Below, one piece after another: positions 3,195-32,284 of a stretch of DNA of 61,183 bases. Every line of letters starts with the position of its first letter. Within the stretch, counting starts at the first letter, position 1. The notes under the pieces were generated by a model that saw only the letters and a list, made by a program, of their open reading frames with translations, made no database searches and was not told where the DNA came from. Made by a program: the position numbers and the translations under genes. Location of the stretch: IMG/VR virus record IMGVR_UViG_3300023179_000113, positions 1 to 61,183 of that record; one strand, 5' to 3'. This DNA comes from a virus.

Positions 3195-3574
3195 TTTGTT
3201 CCTCCAGTATCAAGTCGTTGTTTAATAAAGTTAATCTGATCTTTTGATAAAATTTTCAGTGCCTGAGATGCTTTTTCATTACTATATCCATAGTATTGTT
3301 TGATACACTCCAAGTCCTTGACTTTATCTTTATGGATCCAGGGAGAAAATCTCTTCCGTTTCCTTACAGTATTTAGATAAAATGAATATTGCATATCTTT
3401 ATCTAAAGAATGATGAAGATTCATTTCATTTGTAAAAAGAATACAATCAATACTTCCAGATAAACATTTGTTGATAATGTATGGCAAATACTCACGGACA
3501 CTATCAGAATCAGTTTCCATAATATTGTTTTTTGTCTGATTGATAGAGTTCAACCAATCTTTGAGTTCAATCAT
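3191..3574 (-). CDS. 62: Clamp loader small subunit gp62
   Basis: 127 residues from the ATG at 3574 (MIELKDWLNSINQTKNN). A GTG five codons upstream is less likely because GAGGGG sits between the two. gp62 pairs with gp44 in the 4:1 clamp loader that places gp45 on DNA. Cyanophage gp62 is shorter than the T4 protein (187). The 'FYLNTVRKRKRFSPW' segment parallels the 'VPRGKRYGKW' region of T4 gp62, and the order with regA and gp44 agrees. Its start overlaps the end of the methylase gene by 8 bases, so it appears translationally coupled to an inserted gene rather than to gp44 as in T4. Confidence 0.85.
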   Translation of the reverse strand: MIELKDWLNSINQTKNNIMETDSDSVREYLPYIINKCLSGSIDCILFTNEMNLHHSLDKDMQYSFYLNTVRKRKRFSPWIHKDKVKDLECIKQYYGYSNEKASQALKILSKDQINFIKQRLDTGGTK

Positions 3575-4469
3575 CAACGAGCCCCTCACTTTTTAATTTA
3601 TTATAATTATAGCATCCATCAAAAGCAAATTGGATTTTTGGATTTTTGTTGTAATTAAAAAGAAGAAGTTCTTTACGTTGTTTTTGGTCTCTCATATATT
3701 CACCCACAGAACGCATCGTATAAGTCAAATCAAACTCGGCAGCATTCCAGTTTTTAAATCTATCTTTTACCAACTGATCTGAATTATAACTTATCAATTG
3801 ATCCATATTATTATTATCGCAATCAACAGCAAACTTATCGTGATCAAATCCTTTGTGCATTGATCCTTTGTTGCCATAGAGATTATCCTTAATGTCATAA
3901 GGAGGATCAAGATACATAAAAACATTTCTGTTTCCATCCATCATATAATCATAAGAATAGTTAGTTATACGCCATTTAGAAATAAGTTGTGAATAATCCG
4001 GCAGTTTCTCAATACCACGCATACTGAAATTTGCATTAGATGCCTGTGGTGAAAATGATGAACTTTCGGTAAGACCACTAAAAGAACACTTATTTACAAT
4101 ATAAAATGCAACGGCACGATCAAAATTATTCACAGAAATATCACCAACCTTAACTTTACTTGAAAGAAATAATATCTTTGCCGATACCGGATCATTATAA
4201 CTTGATTTTAAATCTGACAAAGCATTCTTCAAATCTGTTCCAAACATCTGAAGTTGTTGCCAGAAGTTTACAAGAGGTTCATAAAGATCATTTGCCCAAA
4301 TAGTTAAGTCTGGATATTTTTTGGTAATATAAATTGCCACAGATCCACCACCAAGAAATGGTTCCCGAAACTCCTTATAATTTCTAAGATCTGGAAAGTA
4401 TGGATCCATCTTTGTGACCGCCCTACTTTTGCCCCCAGGATATCTTAAACAAGTCTTAAGAGATTTCAT
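3567..4469 (-). CDS. dam: D12-class N6-adenine DNA methyltransferase (Dam-like)
   Basis: 300-residue DNA adenine methylase. N-terminal 'LRYPGGKSRAV' and 'EPFLGGGSVAIYI' (residues 9-19 and 36-47) form the AdoMet-binding region; 'WANDL' at 58-62 is motif II-like; the catalytic DPPY is at 188-191 (YLDPPYDIKD). The C-terminal 'YTMRSVGEYMRDQKQRKELLLFNY' completes the D12 class. The target site cannot be read from sequence, though GATC is common for this class. It sits between clamp-loader genes 44 and 62, overlapping gp44 by 4 bases (ATGA) and gp62 by 8, so it is fully built into the operon. Likely roles are protection from host restriction or marking of phage DNA. Confidence 0.93.
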   Translation of the reverse strand: MKSLKTCLRYPGGKSRAVTKMDPYFPDLRNYKEFREPFLGGGSVAIYITKKYPDLTIWANDLYEPLVNFWQQLQMFGTDLKNALSDLKSSYNDPVSAKILFLSSKVKVGDISVNNFDRAVAFYIVNKCSFSGLTESSSFSPQASNANFSMRGIEKLPDYSQLISKWRITNYSYDYMMDGNRNVFMYLDPPYDIKDNLYGNKGSMHKGFDHDKFAVDCDNNNMDQLISYNSDQLVKDRFKNWNAAEFDLTYTMRSVGEYMRDQKQRKELLLFNYNKNPKIQFAFDGCYNYNKLKSEGLVDD

Positions 4470-7299: not shown

Positions 7300-7328
7300 A
7301 TTATATCAGTTTGTTTTCATTTTGGCAA
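7300..7328 (-). promoter_or_regulatory. Sigma-70-type promoter for the gp45 replication unit
   Basis: Minus strand TTGCCA (7328-7323), 17 bases, TATAAT (7305-7300): one mismatch in the -35 box. The -35 lies inside the end of the cobS-like gene. The start would fall near 7293, about 30 bases before the ATG at 7263. Confidence 0.7.
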
Positions 7329-8460
7329 CATAATCACGAAGAGCTTGCCGTTCTGCCAGAATTTCTTCATCGACTTCATCAACAGGCATCTTGAAATCCA
7401 CATCAATCTTATCATAAAGTTCCAAGAATGCCTGTTTGGTTTCATCATCAAAACGATTTATACAAACCTGTATTGCCTTTGCTTTATCACCAAAAATGCT
7501 GTAGGCACGAATGATGTGAACGAGACGGCGGGTGCTGATGATTTCCTCAATACCACCATCATAGAAGGTCTTACGGATTACATCACCCCAATCAACAAGT
7601 CTCTTACAGAAATCACGATCCTCAAGACCAAGATCCAAAGAAATACCCTCTAAAATCTTTTGCTCAACAGCAGGAGCAGGATAAGATTGTTCAAAGGTCA
7701 CAGGAAATCTTTCTAAGAATGCTTCGTTGAGCACATTAGTTCCGATAAACCTACCATCCTCAGAACCTTTACCTTTGGTATTTGCAGTTGCAAAAACATT
7801 AAATCCAACAGAGGGTTTTACAAACTTACCAATCTTTTTCAGAAAGACACCTTTACCTTCCAATACAGATTGAAGACAGAGGATTTTATTGGAGGCAAGA
7901 TCAATCTCATCCAAAAGTAAAATAGCACCACGTTCAAGTGCTTCAATCACAGGGCCATTATGCCAGACAGTTGCACCGTCCACAAGACGAAAACCACCAA
8001 TCAGATCATCTTCATCAGTTTCAATCGTAATATTTACACGAATCAATTCACGTCCAGTCTGAGCACAAGCTTGCTCCACAGAGAACGTTTTACCATTACC
8101 CGATAGACCCGTAATAAACGTTGGGTAAAAAATACGGGACTGAATAATTTTTTTAATATCGTTGAAGTTACCAAACTTGACGAAAGTATCATCTTTATCA
8201 GGAATAAGATTTTGCTCCAAAGCAGGAAGAGCAGCAGGAGAAGAAAAACTACGTTCTATTTCTTGAACCTTTTCTTGCGTCACTTCCAAGTTCCACTTAC
8301 CACGAGAGGTTTTATATTTCTCAAGATTTTTTGTAACGGTTTGATAAGCACTTCCATTACTAGCACACCAACCACGAATGTCGGCACCAGTAATTTCCGA
8401 TCCAAAAAGTGTTTTGAGAGAAGAAACGATATAATCGGGAGTCATTTTGAGACGGAGCAT
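7306..8460 (-). CDS. cobS: CobS/MoxR-type AAA+ ATPase
   Basis: 384 residues. An N-terminal region of about 70 residues ('IRGWCASNGSAYQTVTKNLEKY', possibly nucleic-acid- or protein-binding) precedes a MoxR-class AAA+ module: Walker A GLSGNGKT (118-125), Walker B LLLDEID (181-187), sensor 'NVFATANTKG', 'FLERFP' arginine-finger area near 250 and the CobS-like C-terminal helical part. Cyanophages almost always carry this gene and it is usually named cobS after the ATPase of cobaltochelatase. The partner here is a VWA protein with a zinc-peptidase motif (9391-11562); no CobN-type chelatase gene lies in the window. The family call is secure; the substrate is not. Confidence 0.9.
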   Translation of the reverse strand: MLRLKMTPDYIVSSLKTLFGSEITGADIRGWCASNGSAYQTVTKNLEKYKTSRGKWNLEVTQEKVQEIERSFSSPAALPALEQNLIPDKDDTFVKFGNFNDIKKIIQSRIFYPTFITGLSGNGKTFSVEQACAQTGRELIRVNITIETDEDDLIGGFRLVDGATVWHNGPVIEALERGAILLLDEIDLASNKILCLQSVLEGKGVFLKKIGKFVKPSVGFNVFATANTKGKGSEDGRFIGTNVLNEAFLERFPVTFEQSYPAPAVEQKILEGISLDLGLEDRDFCKRLVDWGDVIRKTFYDGGIEEIISTRRLVHIIRAYSIFGDKAKAIQVCINRFDDETKQAFLELYDKIDVDFKMPVDEVDEEILAERQALRDYVAKMKTN

Positions 8461-8487
8461 AGTGAGTAGTTTGTTTCAACTTTAGTC

Positions 8488-8496
8488 ATTATAACA
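8488..8496 (-). promoter_or_regulatory. Extended -10 promoter candidate upstream of cobS-like gene
   Basis: Minus strand TGTTATAAT (8496-8488) is a perfect extended -10. No convincing -35 hexamer at 16-18 bases. It lies 28 bases before the ATG at 8460. Confidence 0.5.
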
Positions 8497-8519
8497 GCAA
8501 TCAGAGTCTCAAAACCAAC

Positions 8520-8714
8520 CTACTGGACGGTTTCTAAACTGTCTCTGATTTCACTCAAACGATTTAGACTTACTAAATGTCCTTTATATCCAGGATAATA
8601 TTTTTCTACAAGAGCACCAATACCCATCGCAGTAATGGCACTGTCACACTTCAAATAAACTCTTTTATTCTTGTGATCTATTGCACAGGGCATTCCCCAA
8701 ATTTCCTTTTTCAT
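8520..8714 (-). CDS. Small conserved-type protein, unknown function
   Basis: 64 residues: 'MKKEIWGMPCAIDHKNKRVYLKCDSA' then a hydrophobic helix 'ITAMGIGALVEKYYPGY' and a charged end. Not a signal peptide or clear membrane segment. Its ATG overlaps the stop of the 49-codon upstream gene (ATGA), giving a three-gene chain with 8711-8860 and 8860-9372. I recognise no domain. Confidence 0.65.
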   Translation of the reverse strand: MKKEIWGMPCAIDHKNKRVYLKCDSAITAMGIGALVEKYYPGYKGHLVSLNRLSEIRDSLETVQ

Positions 8715-8860
8715 TTTAATTGATATTCAGGATACTTTTCTCTAACCTTAGATCTAAACCTTCCATTAAATGATGGGGGGTTTAGTTCTCTTTTTTGAGT
8801 GATCACTTTAGCATTATGATCAATAATCAAAAGTTTATCAATACTGTTAGGTTTTTTCAT
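8711..8860 (-). CDS. 49-residue small protein
   Basis: Frame MKKPNSIDKLLIIDHNAKVI ending in VREKYPEYQLK. Start overlaps the upstream stop (TAATG) and stop overlaps the downstream start (ATGA), so it fits exactly into the chain. Basic, no recognised family. Confidence 0.6.
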   Translation of the reverse strand: MKKPNSIDKLLIIDHNAKVITQKRELNPPSFNGRFRSKVREKYPEYQLK

Positions 8861-9372
8861 TAGGGTTCAATTGTAAATGTTTTGTTTTTAACTTTAGTAT
8901 CAAACTCACCAGTTCTACCTGGTTTCATACCTCCTATACTAACATTCTTTCCCTTGCCTGGCCAAGATGTTTTAGAAGTTCCTTTTAGAGTTGAACTTCC
9001 TCCTGGTTTGCGTTGAATCAAAACAGAATCTTGATCGTATTTTTTACCTAACTTTTCTATTGCTTTTTTAAATTTTCTTTTACCTTTCTTTCCAGGAGTA
9101 ATAATGTGTGATTTTTCTCCTACTTTTTTTTCTTCTGGAGTGCCCGGATTTTCTGTATATCTACCAGCAACTTTTGTAGGTCCTGGAAGACCGGCACCCC
9201 TAATATCTTTTTCAAGTTGTTTTGAACGTGCTTTATTTTCTGCCTTTGATTTGTCTCCTCTTTGAGCAGACATAATCGCCATTCCACCTTTCTTTGACTT
9301 ACTCATCACACGAGTAAGAGAAGTCTCTTGAATAGAGTAGCATTCTAGCACAAATTCTTGAAAAGTCTTCAT
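8860..9372 (-). CDS. Basic protein with capsid-targeting-like N-terminus (candidate internal head protein)
   Basis: 170 residues, strongly basic (Lys/Gly-rich between residues 25 and 160). The first residues, MKTFQEFVLECYSIQE, closely match the capsid-targeting sequence of T4 internal proteins, which begin MKTYQEFIAEA. IQE at residues 14-16 fits the (I/L)-x-E rule of the gp21 prohead protease. In T4 such proteins enter the prohead core, are clipped, and are injected with the DNA. The C-terminal part ('KYDQDSVLIQRKPG' to 'RTGEFDTKVKNKTFTIEP') looks like a folded domain I cannot name. A TCTAAATA box lies 16 bases upstream. Internal-protein status is inference from the N-terminus, charge and promoter. 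Confidence 0.6.
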   Translation of the reverse strand: MKTFQEFVLECYSIQETSLTRVMSKSKKGGMAIMSAQRGDKSKAENKARSKQLEKDIRGAGLPGPTKVAGRYTENPGTPEEKKVGEKSHIITPGKKGKRKFKKAIEKLGKKYDQDSVLIQRKPGGSSTLKGTSKTSWPGKGKNVSIGGMKPGRTGEFDTKVKNKTFTIEP

Positions 9373-9387
9373 TTTAATCTTTTTAGG

Positions 9388-9395
9388 TATTTAGA
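9388..9395 (-). promoter_or_regulatory. Late-promoter-like octamer TCTAAATA
   Basis: Minus strand TCTAAATA overlaps the stop of the VWA gene and lies 16 bases before the ATG at 9372. It differs from the T4 late consensus TATAAATA at one base. The same variant precedes the tail-tube-like gene (18166-18173). Confidence 0.4.
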
Positions 9396-11562
9396 CAACA
9401 AGTTCCATAAACTGTCCTAGAACTTTCTTATTCAATTTTTTGATCTTAAGACTTTTTACAAAGGCACTTTTAATCTGTGACTTTGTGGCATCTTCGGCAA
9501 CTTCAAATTCAGAATCTTGTGAGAGAGTGGATGCAGAAAGTCCAAAGTAGGCATCATAACTTGATTCTAAAATATTCAGACTCCGATTCTTCTTCCAATC
9601 AGATAAAATTTTATTATATTGAGGAGATAATTTGTTGTAATAAAGACTCACAAAATTTGATGTATCACGATTCTGAAGCACACGAATACCGATCATATTG
9701 ACTGTCGGAAACTTATCCTTAAGATTTGATATCAAAACTTCAGTAAATTTATGATATTCATACTCAAACTTGTAAGTCGTTCCGATCTTACGATCACGAA
9801 GAAAAGTTTGTCCAGGAGAAATACCACGAACACCAATATAAGGTTCAGATCCACGTTTGACTTCAATATGATAAGGAAGACAATTTGCCTCACCATCAGT
9901 CAGAACTACACACTGAACTTTTTGAAGTTTATTTTCTCTCTGAAAATTGGGAAGAATTTGGTGTAGGGCAATCAGTGCCTCATTCAGTGGAGTGCTGGAA
10001 AGATATAATCGAGTTGGAGCAACATATCTACATCCACACCCATATGGATTACGAAGAGCAATAGTCAGTCTCCAAATATTGAGCATCTGATGCTCCAGAG
10101 TTTTCATATTCACTTTACTTGTAAGAAGATTCAATAAAGAAAAATCATCGGCAACATAAATCAATCCTTCTCGTTTTTCATAATGTGAAGAATAAACTTC
10201 TTGTGACGTTTTTGGACTTCTCCATTCATTTGTAAAGGCATAAACCTCAAAAGGAATTGAGACTTTTTTACAAAACCAGATTAGATTGAAAAGTTGCTTA
10301 CAGGTGTCCTGAATAACTTCATTCATCGACCCACTCCAATCAAGAATAAAAATCAACCCGTGATTTTTACCATCAGGAATCACATTTATTTTCTTAAATA
10401 AATCCTCATTATACTTGTAGGTATGAAGACGTGCAGTATCAAGAACTCCTGTGCGAGCAGTTGATGTTCTGGCATAAGAATCTGCTGCCTTACGACACTC
10501 AAATTCCTTTACGAGATAATTGACTTCTTTTTGAGCAGAAGTCTTAAATTGCTTATATGACCTATCTACCTCTTCATATAAATCAAAGTTATGAGTTGTA
10601 TCATTATTAGCATCAATATATTTTTTTTGTCTTTCGAAATTTTCATCAATATATTGATGAATCTCTGAATTTTTGGCAATTATAGTTTCTAGATTGAGAT
10701 GTGGAAGTTCAACATAAACATTATCTCGGTTATCACTACTTACAAGACTCTCAATTTTTTCACGAAGAGCATCGGCAGTGCGAACTTCAGGTTCTTGTGA
10801 AGAAAGATCTGGTATTGTTTGATTTCCACTAGAATTTCCGGAAGATTCTTCTGGTTGCTGTAATTGTGGGGATTCTTGTTGATCGTTCTCACTTTCTTCG
10901 GTTTCTCCCATCTGTTCACCAGAAGAGGAATTACCTTGTTGTTCGGAATCGTGAGAATCTAGATTAGCAACCTTTTGTTGTTTCTGTTGTTCTTCCTTAC
11001 AATACTCATAAAGTTTCTCTGCGGCAATAATCACATCTGTAAAAGTTTCACAGGAATCAATACACTCAATAATTTCTTTCTCTTTGGAATTAAAATTTAG
11101 AGGAGAAAGAAAATTACCAACCTTAAAGTAAAGGTTTGTTTTATCAGCAAGATTTAAGGTTTCTAAATCTTCGTCAGCAATCTGAAAGAAGTCTTCATCA
11201 TTTAATTCTTTATATCCATTATAAAAAGTCTTTGCAAGTCCTGCATACTTACGTTTCATTAATTTTTCAATGCGGGCATCTTCTACAATATTCACAAACT
11301 GTTGAGGAATTGTAGTGCTTTCAAACCAGTCATCATCGGGAGTAAAGAGGGCATGTCCAACTTCATGTCCTACAAGCAAATCATATACGGTATTACTTGC
11401 TTTATCCCACAGAGGCAGAGTCAAAACACGAGTATGAACATTAAAACAAGCAGTCGCAACTTTCTTGTGCTCAACCACAAGATCTTCGGTAGCAAGCAGT
11501 TTTGCAAGTTGAGACTTGATTTCGTGACTAACTGGCATGAGTTTTGTTTTGTATACACTCAT
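9391..11562 (-). CDS. HExxH zinc-peptidase plus VWA protein, partner of CobS-like ATPase
   Basis: 723 residues with three parts. The N-terminal part has a zinc metallopeptidase motif HEVGH (66-70, in DLLVGHEVGHALF) and a downstream Glu (VEDARIEK, about 93-100) as possible third ligand. Residues about 190-265 are a Gln/Ser/Glu-rich linker. The C-terminal part is a von Willebrand A domain with MIDAS DWSGSM (408-413) and 'VVLTDGEAN'. CobT of cobaltochelatase also has an acidic linker and a C-terminal VWA, and MoxR ATPases act with VWA partners. A pair with the AAA+ gene at 7306-8460 is therefore likely, perhaps remodelling or processing a protein. Cyanophage homologues are often just called peptidase. 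It is not clearly a cobalamin gene. Confidence 0.85.
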   Translation of the reverse strand: MSVYKTKLMPVSHEIKSQLAKLLATEDLVVEHKKVATACFNVHTRVLTLPLWDKASNTVYDLLVGHEVGHALFTPDDDWFESTTIPQQFVNIVEDARIEKLMKRKYAGLAKTFYNGYKELNDEDFFQIADEDLETLNLADKTNLYFKVGNFLSPLNFNSKEKEIIECIDSCETFTDVIIAAEKLYEYCKEEQQKQQKVANLDSHDSEQQGNSSSGEQMGETEESENDQQESPQLQQPEESSGNSSGNQTIPDLSSQEPEVRTADALREKIESLVSSDNRDNVYVELPHLNLETIIAKNSEIHQYIDENFERQKKYIDANNDTTHNFDLYEEVDRSYKQFKTSAQKEVNYLVKEFECRKAADSYARTSTARTGVLDTARLHTYKYNEDLFKKINVIPDGKNHGLIFILDWSGSMNEVIQDTCKQLFNLIWFCKKVSIPFEVYAFTNEWRSPKTSQEVYSSHYEKREGLIYVADDFSLLNLLTSKVNMKTLEHQMLNIWRLTIALRNPYGCGCRYVAPTRLYLSSTPLNEALIALHQILPNFQRENKLQKVQCVVLTDGEANCLPYHIEVKRGSEPYIGVRGISPGQTFLRDRKIGTTYKFEYEYHKFTEVLISNLKDKFPTVNMIGIRVLQNRDTSNFVSLYYNKLSPQYNKILSDWKKNRSLNILESSYDAYFGLSASTLSQDSEFEVAEDATKSQIKSAFVKSLKIKKLNKKVLGQFMELVV

Positions 11563-19706: not shown

Positions 19707-20867
19707 TTATTTGCTAAATTTTGAAAGTGTGTTTAGATATGCAGACATAGAACCTGAGACAGATTCTGGTGCTGAATCTAACCCCTCAGAAAGGGTTTCG
19801 GTTTTAGCATATGGAGAAATCATTTTTGTTGGAAAATAAGATTCCTTTAGTGTCTCCAGTTTTTCACGATATTCTGCTTCACTTTCAAACTCTACACTTT
19901 CGGCAAGTGAGGCGAGCTTCTCTTTCTGAGTGTACGCAAGACCCTCAGAAATTTGATCTAAGATTCCATCAGCAACCGACTCTGCGAGACGACTGTTGAG
20001 TAAAACGTTTTTCTCAATCTGCTCGTTGAGTTTCGTCTCCATATCATCAAGTTTGTTTACCATGCTCTCTAGAACATCATATTTATCGTCAGGGATTGAT
20101 ACATAATGTTCTTCAAAAAGTCCTTTCAGACCAGTCAAGAAGGACTCGGTGAGTTCTTCTTTCAGACCCTTTTCAATTGAGAGTGTGTTTTCAGCAAACC
20201 ACTCATCAGCAACATATTCAAGATAAGAATCTACACGATCGTTTAGTGCTTCTTTAATTTCTTCAATTTCTTCTACAAGTGCCTCAGCATATCTGATCTC
20301 AAGAGATTCTTTGATTTCACTAATTTTTGATCTGAGTGCAGATTCAAAAACAAGTTTTGCCTTTTCTCTAAACTCTTCGGAGAGTTCTTCTCCACCAAGC
20401 AGAGCATTTACATCTTCTTCAAGATCAAACTCTTCTTCTAGGTCCTCATCATCTTCCTCTTCTTCATCTTCTTCCTTTTTACTTTTCTTACCATTTTTCT
20501 TGGTATCTTCCTCTTCTTCATCCTCTTCATCTTCTTCTTCTTTGGCTTCTAGAAGTTCTTCATCTTCTTCATCATAATCAGCATCTTCTTTTGCCATACT
20601 CTTCATAGGATCTGCACTTTTGGCACCCTTGTTAACAACATCTCTAACTTGCTTGAGTGTTTCACCAGGGGTCTTAAGTTTTGCAGAATCATCATCAGAA
20701 CGATAATTTTCGGGTGTAGGACCACCTAAATCTTCCCAACTACCAGTTTGACCGGGTGTTGAACCACTCAAGTGACTCATTGAGTCTGGTGCCGATGCAT
20801 TAGCATTCACAGCAGTTTTGGATTGCTTTGTGCCTACTTCCATTTCTTGTAAATCTCCACGAGACAT
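19707..20867 (-). CDS. 22: Prohead scaffold (core) protein gp22
   Basis: 386 residues (T4: 269). Residues about 95-155 are almost all Glu/Asp with a Lys patch, then a long helical region (about 155-320) typical of the core scaffold. The end 'SGSMSAYLNTLSKF' is conserved among T4-like gp22. In T4 the scaffold is degraded by gp21 before packaging; LLE-type sites (for example ELLEAKEEE) are present. The start has GGAGAG at good spacing. A double late box lies at 20901-20912. The acidic DNA tract (20400-20590) is simple in sequence but in frame. Confidence 0.93.
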   Translation of the reverse strand: MSRGDLQEMEVGTKQSKTAVNANASAPDSMSHLSGSTPGQTGSWEDLGGPTPENYRSDDDSAKLKTPGETLKQVRDVVNKGAKSADPMKSMAKEDADYDEEDEELLEAKEEEDEEDEEEEDTKKNGKKSKKEEDEEEEDDEDLEEEFDLEEDVNALLGGEELSEEFREKAKLVFESALRSKISEIKESLEIRYAEALVEEIEEIKEALNDRVDSYLEYVADEWFAENTLSIEKGLKEELTESFLTGLKGLFEEHYVSIPDDKYDVLESMVNKLDDMETKLNEQIEKNVLLNSRLAESVADGILDQISEGLAYTQKEKLASLAESVEFESEAEYREKLETLKESYFPTKMISPYAKTETLSEGLDSAPESVSGSMSAYLNTLSKFSK

Positions 20868-20922: not shown

Positions 20923-21573
20923 TTACAACGAATTTAGAAAATCGTTGAAAATCTTCAATCTATTTTCTTCTAGTTGTTTTTGTGAAACTAATGTATTTAT
21001 TCTTTTATAAGTTTTCTTTGCAAATTGCTCACGAAGCACTCCACCGTCCCATACCCATTCTTTACCTTCCATAATCCCCTGAACAAAAGCATCAGGTGCA
21101 GATGGATCTGCTACGATATCAGCGGCAGTTGCGAGCATAAAATCTTCACCAACTTCACTATAACCATTTTGAGTTGGTCTTAGTGAACCAATACCACGAG
21201 AAGAAACACCGAGCATCACACCTTCTTTGAGAAGTGCTTCGGCAATCTTACCCATAGGAGTGGAAAGAATTTGTGCTTTACCAATAAAATTATTACCCTC
21301 ACGATAAAGTTCTGTAATTTTATGAGAAACTCTATCCAGATTGACTGTTGGACCATCTGGATGTCCGAGTTCACCAAGAGCACGACCTTTATTTACATAT
21401 TGTTCTGTATATCTTTTGACCTCACGTTCCATCACTGGCATACGATAAATTCTTTTATTCCGATTTGGTTGTTCGGTCTGAAGAAATGGTCCTTTGATAT
21501 AGAGAGTTTTTTTACCGTTTCTTTCTTCGGTAATTACTTCTACTGATTCAATCTCTTCGGTAATAAGTTTCAT
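20923..21573 (-). CDS. 21: Prohead core protease gp21
   Basis: 216 residues (T4: 212). Serine-type prohead protease: His71 in 'ALGELGHPDGP', Ser124/Ser125 in 'GVMLGVSSRGIGSL', and 'ADIVADPSAPDAFV' with the conserved Asp-Pro-Ser. It clips gp23, the scaffold and internal proteins after (I/L)-x-E. GGAG lies in the end of the preceding gene, and stop and start overlap as TGATG. Confidence 0.96.
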   Translation of the reverse strand: MKLITEEIESVEVITEERNGKKTLYIKGPFLQTEQPNRNKRIYRMPVMEREVKRYTEQYVNKGRALGELGHPDGPTVNLDRVSHKITELYREGNNFIGKAQILSTPMGKIAEALLKEGVMLGVSSRGIGSLRPTQNGYSEVGEDFMLATAADIVADPSAPDAFVQGIMEGKEWVWDGGVLREQFAKKTYKRINTLVSQKQLEENRLKIFNDFLNSL

Positions 21574-22249: not shown

Positions 22250-23077
22250 TTACGCTAACTCCTTACAGGTAAAGGCAAACCACACATCTAACTTAGTGCT
22301 ATTATCAACTCTTTTCATACAAAGTGTAAGCATATTTGGATTTGCTCCACCATACATAGTTGACGGTCCTTCATCATTTGAAGTATTTTTTCCAATAATA
22401 ACTCCACTATGTCTCATAACAGAAGTATTTTGTGTGAAGGTATTTCCCGCATTACTACTATACTTATCTTGATATACTCTATATTGTAATTTTGTTCCTA
22501 GTGAACTCCAAGCCGGAATTGCTGCTCCAGCAATATTAATATCACCCTCATACCACTCATAGATAATGGTGCTTTGATTGGCATTATTATTTCCAATTTC
22601 ATATTCTATAATTTCTGCCAAGTCTGATGTAGTGGTTCCAGAACTATTCACTCTAATACTCATCACAGGTCTCATAGTATCATCCATAGTCCAACCACGA
22701 TTTGTATTTGTTGCGTGATTGTTAAATGAATATAAACTACCTTCAGATTGTTTGATAACTATAATATTATTGAAAGTTGATATACCTACTGGAAGATATG
22801 AAAGATTTAGATTTACTGTTCCAATGCCAATTGGAAGATAAGGAACACCAAGATTTTCTAAAATACCACTCGAACCAACTTCTGTAATGTGATTGTGAAT
22901 TGGATTTTGAGGAGAACTTGTAACACTTACAGTTGTTCCTACATTTACATCACCAGTAATTGTAATATTAGAAGAACCTAATGAAACTGGAAATGGATTA
23001 GAAAAACTTACTAATGTATTCCCCGCCCCCGTAAGGATTACAGATTGTGATGGTTGTGGAAGAGGATTATAAGACAT
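22250..23077 (-). CDS. Predicted virion structural protein, unknown
   Basis: 275 residues from ATG 23077 (MSYNPLPQPSQSVILTGAGN), whose A overlaps the upstream stop as TAATG; an earlier in-frame start would overlap more. Residues about 1-95 are short beta repeats ('SLGSSNITITGDVNVGTTVSVTSSP', 'YLPIGIGTVNLNLSYLPVGIST'). Residues about 100-275 look like a jelly-roll-type C-terminal domain ('MRPVMSIRVNSSGTTTSDLAEIIEYEIGNN...', 'KLDVWFAFTCKELA'). Paired with the fibre-like gene upstream. A head or neck fibre or receptor-binding role is possible but unproven. Confidence 0.75.
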   Translation of the reverse strand: MSYNPLPQPSQSVILTGAGNTLVSFSNPFPVSLGSSNITITGDVNVGTTVSVTSSPQNPIHNHITEVGSSGILENLGVPYLPIGIGTVNLNLSYLPVGISTFNNIIVIKQSEGSLYSFNNHATNTNRGWTMDDTMRPVMSIRVNSSGTTTSDLAEIIEYEIGNNNANQSTIIYEWYEGDINIAGAAIPAWSSLGTKLQYRVYQDKYSSNAGNTFTQNTSVMRHSGVIIGKNTSNDEGPSTMYGGANPNMLTLCMKRVDNSTKLDVWFAFTCKELA

Positions 23078-23976
23078 TATACTAAGAACCAATTTTGACT
23101 ATTATAAAAATAAGTTAGGGATTGGTGATTGATATTCATAATCACTGAAGTATCATTTTCAACACTTTTACCAATACCTGCCTGAACTGTAATACTATAT
23201 GTAGATATATTATTTCCCTCATCTTTGACGATGATTTTTTTTCCTATACTTGGAGATGTTGGAAGAACTATTGTTACAGGAACACTTGCATTTACTCCAA
23301 TATAATCATCAGTATCTGTTGCCTGATAGTATGTAGTAACTCCTGTGATGGATACAATACTTGTAATACCAACACCATCAGCAGGGTCTCCTACCCACTT
23401 ATTCAGAGACGCATTATATTTGAGAAAATAATTATCGGTCTTTGCAGTATTTCTATCAACATCATCAAGAAACTCTAAACGAGTTTCACCACCTCCACCT
23501 AATGTAGAAAGTTGCTGTTGAATACGATTGAGAAAAAGTTTATAATGATTTTGTAAGTCATCAAGTGTTGCAAAGTTTTGATTAAGAGGAGTAAGATGGT
23601 CTGATGTTTTTTCTTGGGGTAGAATATTTAAGAGACCTTCTGTAAGAACTTCTTCTTTAACTGATTTCTTTTCTGCTTTTGATAAACGATCATAATAATC
23701 TGGCAACTCATCAATATGTTGAGATGCTATGGTAGTTGCTAATTCTATATTTTTTGTATGTTCTTTCTCTACTTTTGTTCCTTTTTTGAGTTGATTTTTA
23801 ATTTGAGATAAAGGAACTTTATGCTTCTTTGCTAATTGCTCTGGAGTTTTATGTGGTTTAAGTTGTTCATTAAAAATTTCATCAAAGAAATTATCTCCAA
23901 CAAGAGATTTAAATTCTTCTTCTTTTTGTATCTTTGCTTCTACAACTACGTTAAAAAAGTCTGATAGACTTGCCAT
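23077..23976 (-). CDS. DUF5661-like protein with fibre-type C-terminus
   Basis: 299 residues. Residues about 40-105 ('HKTPEQLAKKHKVPLSQIKNQLKKGTKVEKEHTKNIELATTIASQHIDELPDYYDRL') match the DUF5661 pattern ('GIKVE.EHT....A..IA.DHL.E.PDYY..L'). Residues about 140-185 ('HYKLFLNRIQQQLSTLGGGGETRLEFLDDVDR', 'YNASLNKWV') match a segment seen in cyanophage fibre proteins, and the end is a beta domain. So it appears to join a core-type N-terminus to a fibre-type C-terminus. It is coupled to the next gene (TAATG). Probably virion-associated, location unknown. Confidence 0.7.
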   Translation of the reverse strand: MASLSDFFNVVVEAKIQKEEEFKSLVGDNFFDEIFNEQLKPHKTPEQLAKKHKVPLSQIKNQLKKGTKVEKEHTKNIELATTIASQHIDELPDYYDRLSKAEKKSVKEEVLTEGLLNILPQEKTSDHLTPLNQNFATLDDLQNHYKLFLNRIQQQLSTLGGGGETRLEFLDDVDRNTAKTDNYFLKYNASLNKWVGDPADGVGITSIVSITGVTTYYQATDTDDYIGVNASVPVTIVLPTSPSIGKKIIVKDEGNNISTYSITVQAGIGKSVENDTSVIMNINHQSLTYFYNSQNWFLV

Positions 23977-30418: not shown

Positions 30419-32284
30419 TTAATTACAGTTCCAACGACGAAGTGCTTTATTTATTCTTGAATCTGGATCTCGTGCAGTTTTTGCAGAAGTAAGTTTTGAC
30501 TTCATTCCTTTCATACGACGGCAAAATGAAGCACGACGTTTTGCTCTTTTACCAGTAGGATTCTTTTCAGTTACTGCAGTTTGTAGTTTTGAACCTGGAT
30601 TCTCACGACGATATGCATTCACTGCTGCTTGACTCAATCCATCAGTTTTATCTTGACGATTAACTTTTTGCCAATCTTCTTCAATCTCAACTTCCTCACC
30701 AATTGTTTTAGAATTAAGAAGATAGTTTTTTGATTTTGAATTTACAACTTGAATTAGTGGCATTCCAGGTTCAATTGTTGAAACTTTATATTGAAGAACT
30801 TGAGAACCTGGATAAATTTTTTGTATCTCTGTTGTAACATCTTTCCTGCTGGGCATTCCAATTTGTGGAAAGAACATTCTGATTGAATATGTCTTTCCCC
30901 TCCAGTTCAAAATTACAGCAAGAATGTTTCCTGTTTCTGCTTGTAAACGAGTTGACTCATCAATCAATTCACCATCTGGTTCATAAGAATTATTGAGACC
31001 TCTTTGACGTTTATTCCAATCCATATAAGATTCACCGGGACGTAACTTCTTAGGATCTGATTTTGGTTTAGGATAATCTTCACGAGCACGTTGATTTGGT
31101 CCAGGACCACCAAGTCTTCTATCTATTTTTGGATCTGGATGCCAAAAATCACCTTCATAAACAATCTCTTCATTATTGACTTCACCACTATCAAGATAAT
31201 CTGCTGCAGTATCAATATAATCTGCTGCTTTAGTAATTTTAGATTGTACCCAGGCTTCAATATTTCCTTCGCCTCTACCCACCTTTGCTTGAAGTCTTTT
31301 TACAGCATTAGCAATAGTTTTAAGTTCAGATCTTGCCATTGAATATTCATGATCTTTAATAGAAACTTTATCCCATGCCTTTCCACCATAAGAACATTCA
31401 GATCTTGATTCTTTTTTATCACATAATGGACAGTATCTTTCTTCTTCTTGCATAGTTGCCTCCGACGTTGTTCCCCAATTTGCAGCACCAACTTTACGAC
31501 ATTTGACAAGTGCTCCCGATGCATATGCACTTGGCCAAACACTATATCTTGATTTTACTTTAGTATAACAGGCATCTTTTTTACCACTTCCTTTGCCTGG
31601 TTTGTCTTTTTGTGCTTCGTTGAGTTCCATTGCTTCTTTAATTCCGGGTTCTGCTTTAATGTAATTTTTATCTTTTTTACCTTTAGCAAAGGTTGGAACA
31701 TTAGTTGGTGCCGATGCTCCAGTTTTTTGTTGTTGCCCTTTATCTTTTTCTCTTTTTCTTCTAACTGCTGATTTAATCAAAGCAAGTCCTTTTTTACCTT
31801 TTCTTTTTAATGCTCTTAATCTTCCACTACTAAAACATTTAGGTGTTTTAGTTTCTCCTGGTTCATTTGCACATGGAGAACCATCTGGTTGAACCCACCC
31901 CGGTTTTCCTTTTTTTGATTTTGATCCATGATACCAAAAATGAAGAGTTCCTTCATTTATCCAATCATCGGGAGTTTTATTGTGCTTATCAACAAAAGCA
32001 TTATGAAGTTGTTTTGCGGTCATATCATGTTTTTTCATAATATTTCTCATAAGTCTATCAATAGAATCATAAGAAGTATTATTCAATTTTTTTAATCCAG
32101 TCTCAAGTTCTTTGACTGCATCATCTTCACATCCACAATGTTCCATCATCTCATTAAAAGGAGATTTCGATTTAGTTGGTTTGCCGTTTGCTCTTTTTTT
32201 GCGAGCATCACAATGAGCTTTCTGAGAAAATCCTTTAGGATTATTGCAGTCAATTGATTTTTTGTATTTGTCGGACCAACTCAT
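30419..32284 (-). CDS. Cys-rich basic mosaic protein between gp16 and gp17
   Basis: 621 residues made of modules that I recognise as recurring in cyanophage proteins: 'IDCNNPKGFSQKAHC' (11-25); 'GWVQPDGSPCANEPGETKTPKC' (129-150) followed by a Lys/Arg tract; 'ACYTKVKSRYSVWPSAYASGALVKCRK' (238-264, DUF5872-type region); a CPLC..C zinc-ribbon-like piece (285-297); helical 'ARSELKTIANAVKRL...WVQSKITKAADYIDTAADYL' (317-364); and a C-terminal 'FCRRMKGMKSKLTSAKTARDPDSRINKALRRWNC' (about 588-620). The function of these modules is unknown. In T4, 16 and 17 are adjacent, so this is an insertion into the packaging operon. A DNA-binding or internal-head role is a guess from charge. Confidence 0.8.
   Translation of the reverse strand: MSWSDKYKKSIDCNNPKGFSQKAHCDARKKRANGKPTKSKSPFNEMMEHCGCEDDAVKELETGLKKLNNTSYDSIDRLMRNIMKKHDMTAKQLHNAFVDKHNKTPDDWINEGTLHFWYHGSKSKKGKPGWVQPDGSPCANEPGETKTPKCFSSGRLRALKRKGKKGLALIKSAVRRKREKDKGQQQKTGASAPTNVPTFAKGKKDKNYIKAEPGIKEAMELNEAQKDKPGKGSGKKDACYTKVKSRYSVWPSAYASGALVKCRKVGAANWGTTSEATMQEEERYCPLCDKKESRSECSYGGKAWDKVSIKDHEYSMARSELKTIANAVKRLQAKVGRGEGNIEAWVQSKITKAADYIDTAADYLDSGEVNNEEIVYEGDFWHPDPKIDRRLGGPGPNQRAREDYPKPKSDPKKLRPGESYMDWNKRQRGLNNSYEPDGELIDESTRLQAETGNILAVILNWRGKTYSIRMFFPQIGMPSRKDVTTEIQKIYPGSQVLQYKVSTIEPGMPLIQVVNSKSKNYLLNSKTIGEEVEIEEDWQKVNRQDKTDGLSQAAVNAYRRENPGSKLQTAVTEKNPTGKRAKRRASFCRRMKGMKSKLTSAKTARDPDSRINKALRRWNCN

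Follow-up and report, generated by a model that had tools for sequence, protein, structure and literature searches.

The best overall explanation of the 170-residue protein described here is that it is a packaged, gp21-trimmed and injected counter-defence S-adenosylmethionine (SAM) lyase, and as a whole this explanation is considered likely. That is to say, the head-loading tag of T4 and a phage SAM lyase would be joined in one protein, giving a catalytic counter-defence that is delivered with the DNA. Neither family is new, and the proteomics of S-CREM2 has already led once to the proposal of a SAM hydrolase carried in the virion (PMC10665884). What is new is the predicted loading signal and putative cut site on a SAM lyase, retained across 126 distinct homologues, together with an indication that the tag predicts non-structural virion cargo in cyanophages.

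Gene and Genome Context

The window, i.e., the whole stretch of 61,183 nucleotides that was analysed, is 61 kb of a T4-like cyanophage; in the major capsid protein it shares 86% identity with Synechococcus phage S-B05 and 83% with P-TIM68. The initial annotation had placed an open reading frame (ORF) at 8860..9372 between an AAA+ gene and a peptidase gene; the ORF exists as claimed, with the omitted strand being minus (coding from 9372 to 8863, then the stop), and it is defined by its translation, the PF23780 profile and the 126 distinct homologues. The flanking genes are also as described: the downstream neighbour (7306..8460, minus) is an AAA+ gene of the CobS/MoxR type (PF07728; phrog_249), from which a 64-aa ORF separates the SAM lyase gene, and the upstream neighbour (9391..11562, minus) is a peptidase gene (phrog_459). 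This position is retained in most relatives: of 124 distinct loci, 88 have the CobS-type gene at most 900 nt downstream and 78 have the peptidase gene at most 900 nt upstream. No homologue was found in the plasmids searched, and a profile scan built on a narrow alignment returned the same close relatives only, nothing further. The slot itself (7306-11562) carries different cargo in different cyanophages, namely SAM lyase here, purM and SAM lyase in P-TIM68 and a methyltransferase in S-SCSM1, and is a possible insertion hot spot.

According to profile matches, the genome contains both the gp21 prohead protease, the presumed processing enzyme (20923..21573, minus; PF03420 Peptidase_S77, E=2e-36; phrog_207), and the gp22 scaffold, which by analogy with T4 is the presumed core partner bound by the tag (19707..20867, minus; phrog_237, E=2e-101). 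The phage also has a SAM-using enzyme of its own, a D12-class DNA adenine methylase (3567..4469, minus; PF02086, E=5e-26).

The late-type box that had been noticed upstream is present as TCTAAATA at 9388..9395 (minus), 15 nt before the ATG, and has the form N[AC]TAAATA; CTAAATA and ATAAATA are described late promoters of T4-like phages (PMC1524935). In the window, boxes of this form lie close upstream of structural genes and uvsW, and no replication-type gene in the first 15 kb other than that of the SAM lyase starts within 60 nt of such a box. Among 103 distinct upstream regions of homologues, 88 contain the box, mostly 19–22 nt before the start; shuffles gave an expectation of 6. Transcription of the gene is probably late, from a gp55-type promoter.

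Assignment of the Protein Body

The SAM lyase domain covers residues 33–152 (8917..9276, minus) and is indicated by profile, residue alignment and fold. PF23780 (S-adenosylmethionine lyase) matches with E=9e-14 and 51.9 bits against a cut-off of 28; the profile is matched by each of the 34 sequences in an alignment of diverse homologues, and the cyanophages P-SSM2, P-SSM4 and S-SZBM1 have remote versions above its cut-off. In Svi3-3, SAM is bound by G56, Y58, E69, S71 and Q104, among which G56, E69 and Q104 are strict in active SAMases (PMC7877911). The alignment places these five residues at G70, Y72, E86, S88 and Q114 here, and E105 of Svi3-3 at D115, a replacement that counts against the overall reading. 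Across the 34 sequences there is no variation at G70, E86 and Q114 and almost none at Y72 and S88, while the linkers vary.

Since a PDB sequence search with the window protein found no relative, fold comparison was used. The structure model, whose alignment excluded four rows from annotated phage records, is of moderate confidence (pLDDT 63), with residues 1–20 below 50. Its top match in the PDB is the T3 SAM lyase 8bb1 (E=1e-5, TM 0.71 by target); the next matches are 7ock, a complex of SAM synthase and SAM hydrolase, and then Svi3-3, and a PII/GlnB-like alpha–beta fold is predicted for the protein. Taken together, it is quite likely to be an active SAM lyase. Some relatives are longer fusions. 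DUF3293 was rejected as an identity; its match to the window protein is weak and below its cut-off, and it matches 10 of the 34 homologues.

The part of the protein behind the N-terminus had been described only as highly basic. The basic character stands (pI 10.15 for the full-length 170-aa protein; K+R 39 and D+E 17, computed), but the body is not that of an anonymous internal protein, given its assignment to SAM lyase by profile, residues and fold. The same composition bears on the idea of an inactive lyase retained as a basic DNA-condensing internal protein: the lysine content is high, the pI is above 10, and lysines of T4 internal proteins contact DNA (PMC3012670). Such a role is very unlikely, as an inactive enzyme does not agree with SAM-binding residues that are held so strictly in diverse homologues with variable linkers. 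A packaged SAM-AMP lyase, serving to silence the signalling of type III CRISPR systems, would share the PII-like fold family, and a phage-encoded SAM-AMP lyase exists, but the hallmark residues of that group are replaced: its strictly conserved C66, which precedes the catalytic E by five residues, corresponds to E81, and its T112, which follows the conserved Q by four residues and contacts the MTA adenine, corresponds to L118, a residue similar to the Ile found in SAM lyase. Membership of that group was therefore rejected, and silencing of this kind is highly improbable.

Capsid-Targeting Tag and Processing Site

First of all, the protein starts with MKTFQEFVLECYSIQE, in which residues 1–10, MKTFQEFVLE (9343..9372, minus), form the predicted capsid-targeting sequence (CTS) and IQE|T a gp21-type site. 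The initial annotation had called this N-terminus a near-copy of the T4 CTS with a gp21-type IQE at residues 14–16, and both statements are exact, the identity to MKTYQEFIAE being 7/10. In the T4 records, ipII bears MKTYQEFIAE, and residues −10 to −1 are annotated in X04567 as the part that is removed. The chance of a 7/10 match is 2.5e-6 per gene and 1.2e-4 over the window's 48 main genes, among which every other gene has at most 4/10 identity; a motif scan of this kind had been named as a check.

In the internal proteins of T-even phages the tag is the sole conserved part (PMC3012670). Mutational work in T4 assigned targeting mainly to residues 4 and 7 and processing to residues 8 and 10; with aspartate at position 10, processing of the T4 tag is blocked and targeting unaffected, and the gp21 consensus is L/I-x-E (PMC9026906). 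The homologue set used here comprises 126 distinct sequences, 125 with a recognisable core and 120 with a complete 5′ end. The key residues are kept in them: the strict start M-[KR]-x-[FYL]-x-x-[FY] is found in 111 of the 120, and within these 111, F or Y stands at position 4 in 110 and F at position 7 in every one, while position 8 carries M, V, I or L in 109 and position 10 carries E in 97.

Residues 11–16, CYSIQE (9325..9342, minus), lead up to E16, behind which gp21 is proposed, from the homologue pattern and the gp21 consensus, to cut the protein (between 9325 and 9324). In all 125 homologues with a recognisable core, the conserved [ST]SLxR is immediately preceded by E, and two positions ahead of this E there is I, M, L, V or F; this putative hydrophobic-x-E site fits the gp21 consensus if its first position is slightly relaxed. 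The spacing between Met and this E is 10 residues in about half of the homologues, which is the T4 layout (MKTYKEFMQE|SSL); other distances are 13, 16 (the window protein) and 62–287 in fusions, where the tag remains N-terminal and the lyase sits at the C-terminus. The homologues with D at position 10 carry IQE at 11–13 in 10 of 10 cases, that is, a cut site is kept where the T4 rules predict that the first one fails. E10 as the only cut site of the window protein was rejected, because the family-wide pattern favours a cut after E16 rather than E10; gp21 may cut after E10, and the conservation of E16 could partly reflect the enzyme's own fold. Cleavage by gp21 as such is probable, and the predicted mature protein consists of residues 17–170 (8863..9324, minus; 154 residues, computed pI 10.4 and 16.6 kDa). 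In summary, as far as sequence can tell, the window protein has what was looked for from T4 CTS-tagged internal proteins, i.e., the tag, the cut site, gp21 and gp22 in the genome and the late box.

In some fusions (L025, L058 and L380), an internal relic of the SAM lyase tag (KSFKQFMLECNSIQE, ITYREFIAEG) lies inside the longer protein, an indication that another gene was fused onto a tagged lyase that had once been free.

Tagged Proteins with Other Bodies

The tag is not confined to SAM lyases. A scan of viral-contig DNA gave at least 87 matches, at least 86 of them opening an ORF of at least 40 residues, and among the matches listed for the viral contigs these ORFs fall into at least 51 body groups without detectable similarity to one another. 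Among the same listed matches, SAM lyase is the commonest tagged body (about 24), a share biased upward because the scan pattern resembles the SAM lyase tag; a GNAT acetyltransferase, a double-psi lytic transglycosylase domain and a cytidylyltransferase are also found. In contig L316 (6037-6813) the tagged body is a polyvalent-type ADP-ribosyltransferase (PF18760, E=1e-23), a candidate for an injected host-modifying enzyme like T4 Alt, and contig L310 (6400-9422) has four consecutive tagged genes with unrelated bodies, a possible cargo cassette.

Two further proteins of the window deserve description. The 621-aa protein beside the large terminase gene (30419-32284, minus) is matched over different segments by a dozen PHROGs of unknown function, has an upstream late box and several hydrophobic-x-E sites, and looks like a mosaic array protein, similar to the SAM-lyase-ended one of S-SZBM1. 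The N-terminus of the protein at 23077-23976 (minus), MASLSDFFNVVVEAK, resembles a divergent tag, and the HKTPEQLAKKHKVPLSQIKNQLKKG segment after it is similar to a segment of a 363-aa protein whose tag is clear (L294), a hint that this may be another head cargo.

It is tentatively proposed that T4-like phages of seas and lakes load many unrelated enzymes as injected effectors by means of a portable 10-residue tag, SAM lyase most often, and that some SAM lyases form the end of a long precursor, from which gp21 would release several pieces of cargo. This proposal, which may or may not hold, also covers the ADP-ribosyltransferase, acetyltransferase and nucleotidyltransferase cargo.

Evidence from Virions

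In S-CREM2, CsCl-purified virions contained the SAM hydrolase homologue (19 unique peptides, 26.3% coverage); its authors propose that the enzyme enters the cell and shields the DNA from restriction, with the caution that it may co-purify, carry-over being possible (PMC10665884). The strict motif tested, M-[KR]-x-[FYL]-x-x-[FY]-[ILMV]-x-E, occurs in four of the 219 S-CREM2 proteins (SAM lyase, kinase, cytidylyltransferase and a 78-aa protein), and all four are among its 52 virion proteins (p=0.003, an optimistic value because the motif was partly shaped after three of the four had been seen). In S-SCSM1, which was not inspected beforehand, two proteins have the motif: the NMNAT-type enzyme is a virion protein, and ORF30 was not detected in virions. 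Pooled over the two phages, five of six motif proteins are in virions (p=0.0015, the S-CREM2 share having partly shaped the motif). The motif has no match in P-TIM68, whose SAM lyase, beginning MKTYKEFIQD, misses it only through the D at residue 10. Cytidylyltransferases have been reported in S-SM1 and S-SZBM1 virions. On S-CREM2 OR473000.1 (3837-13331), a SAM lyase, an HNH/Cas9-like protein, a kinase and two small proteins form a cluster, all virion-detected, and several of them begin with tag-like F-x-x-F N-termini.

The prediction, already made in the initial annotation, that the protein is packaged in the head is thus supported, and packaging is now judged very likely, because it is precisely the targeting and processing residues that are conserved, the late box is conserved on a gene that lies among replication genes, the same tag is re-used on dozens of unrelated proteins and the S-CREM2 homologue has been published as detected in virions by mass spectrometry. 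The opposite reading is that the SAM lyase acts late in the producing cell, unpackaged, with the N-terminal helix being part of the fold and virion detection being carry-over. There is a precedent in the T3 SAM lyase, which is made early and works in the infected cell, not from the virion. The array protein of S-SZBM1 that ends in SAM lyase, a remote relative, was not detected in virions, and the S-CREM2 authors were unable to exclude carry-over (PMC10665884). However, since the same N-terminus opens at least 51 unrelated bodies, the tag is not part of the lyase fold; the model confidence below 50 for residues 1–20 and the fusions, in which the tag stays at the very N-terminus and the lyase is distant at the C-terminus, speak in the same direction, and late expression would be of little use for defending incoming DNA. 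An unpackaged SAM lyase is therefore rather improbable.

Proposed Mechanism

In the preferred reading, the gene would be transcribed late, and the N-terminal T4-type tag, on sequence-level support, would recruit the product into the prohead core. There gp21 would cut after E16 and leave a 154-residue basic SAM lyase inside the head, where it would stay with the DNA and be injected along with it. From the family and the conserved active site, host SAM would then be split into methylthioadenosine and homoserine lactone, and, to judge from known phage SAM lyases, loss of SAM at DNA entry would blunt defences that depend on SAM, restriction-modification and BREX among them, before phage gene expression. 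As a rough estimate, a few hundred enzyme molecules could in principle clear the SAM pool of a marine picocyanobacterium, a small cell, in about a minute. Because the phage has its own D12-type adenine methylase, SAM must recover or be spared later, and the limited number of delivered molecules would allow such recovery.

The purpose of injection could also be metabolic or regulatory, for example a block of host methylation or the release of methylthioadenosine and homoserine. Tagged virion proteins other than the lyase are metabolic or signalling ones (cytidylyltransferase, kinase), and in P-TIM68 speD, which putatively encodes SAM decarboxylase, lies only a few kb from the lyase gene. But a limited injected dose is best in the first minutes, while the incoming DNA is under attack; known phage SAM lyases defeat restriction-modification and BREX (PMC7877911 among the sources), and the tagged IPI of T4 is an injected anti-restriction protein (PMC3012670). 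A metabolic purpose is thus unlikely, and counter-defence is the fairly likely one.

If the preferred reading holds, the tag accounts for the SAM hydrolase in S-CREM2 virions, and a simple sequence rule becomes available to predict injected effectors in cyanophages, where most are annotated as hypothetical.

Comparison with Known Systems

The T3 SAMase and Svi3-3 (PF23780) share profile, fold and SAM-binding residues with the window protein. To our knowledge, neither carries a capsid-targeting tag. SAM-AMP lyases of type III CRISPR systems and phages belong to the same superfamily of PII-like lyases, in which the catalytic E and Q are conserved, but their substrate-specific C66 and T112 are absent from the window protein. 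DarA and Hdf of phage P1 and the polyvalent proteins are likewise head-carried counter-defence proteins delivered with DNA, but they are large, often multidomain, and use another loading route; polyvalent membership was rejected for the window protein, in which one domain was found against the two or more disparate domains required, and the terms SAMase and SAM hydrolase are absent from the polyvalent-protein survey.

A relative described in virions is ORF6 of S-CREM2 (Liu et al. 2023, PMC10665884), a homologue about 51% identical over the shared part, with the tag MKDFDSFLEE and the site LEE|SSL. It differs in about 240 extra C-terminal residues and in its genome context, where it adjoins an adenine methylase; the available part of that paper makes no mention of its targeting sequence and cut site.

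In mode of loading, the nearest systems are IPI, IPII and IPIII of T4, which likewise have a 10-residue N-terminal tag with the same key residues, a gp21-type site, a small basic body and late expression (predicted here from the conserved box). Their bodies are unrelated to that of the window protein, and their cut site is at 10, not 16. Moreover, T4 IPI blocks a single restriction enzyme by binding it, whereas the window protein is a predicted enzyme acting on a shared cofactor; unlike IPI, an injected enzyme that consumes such a cofactor could hit several defences at once.
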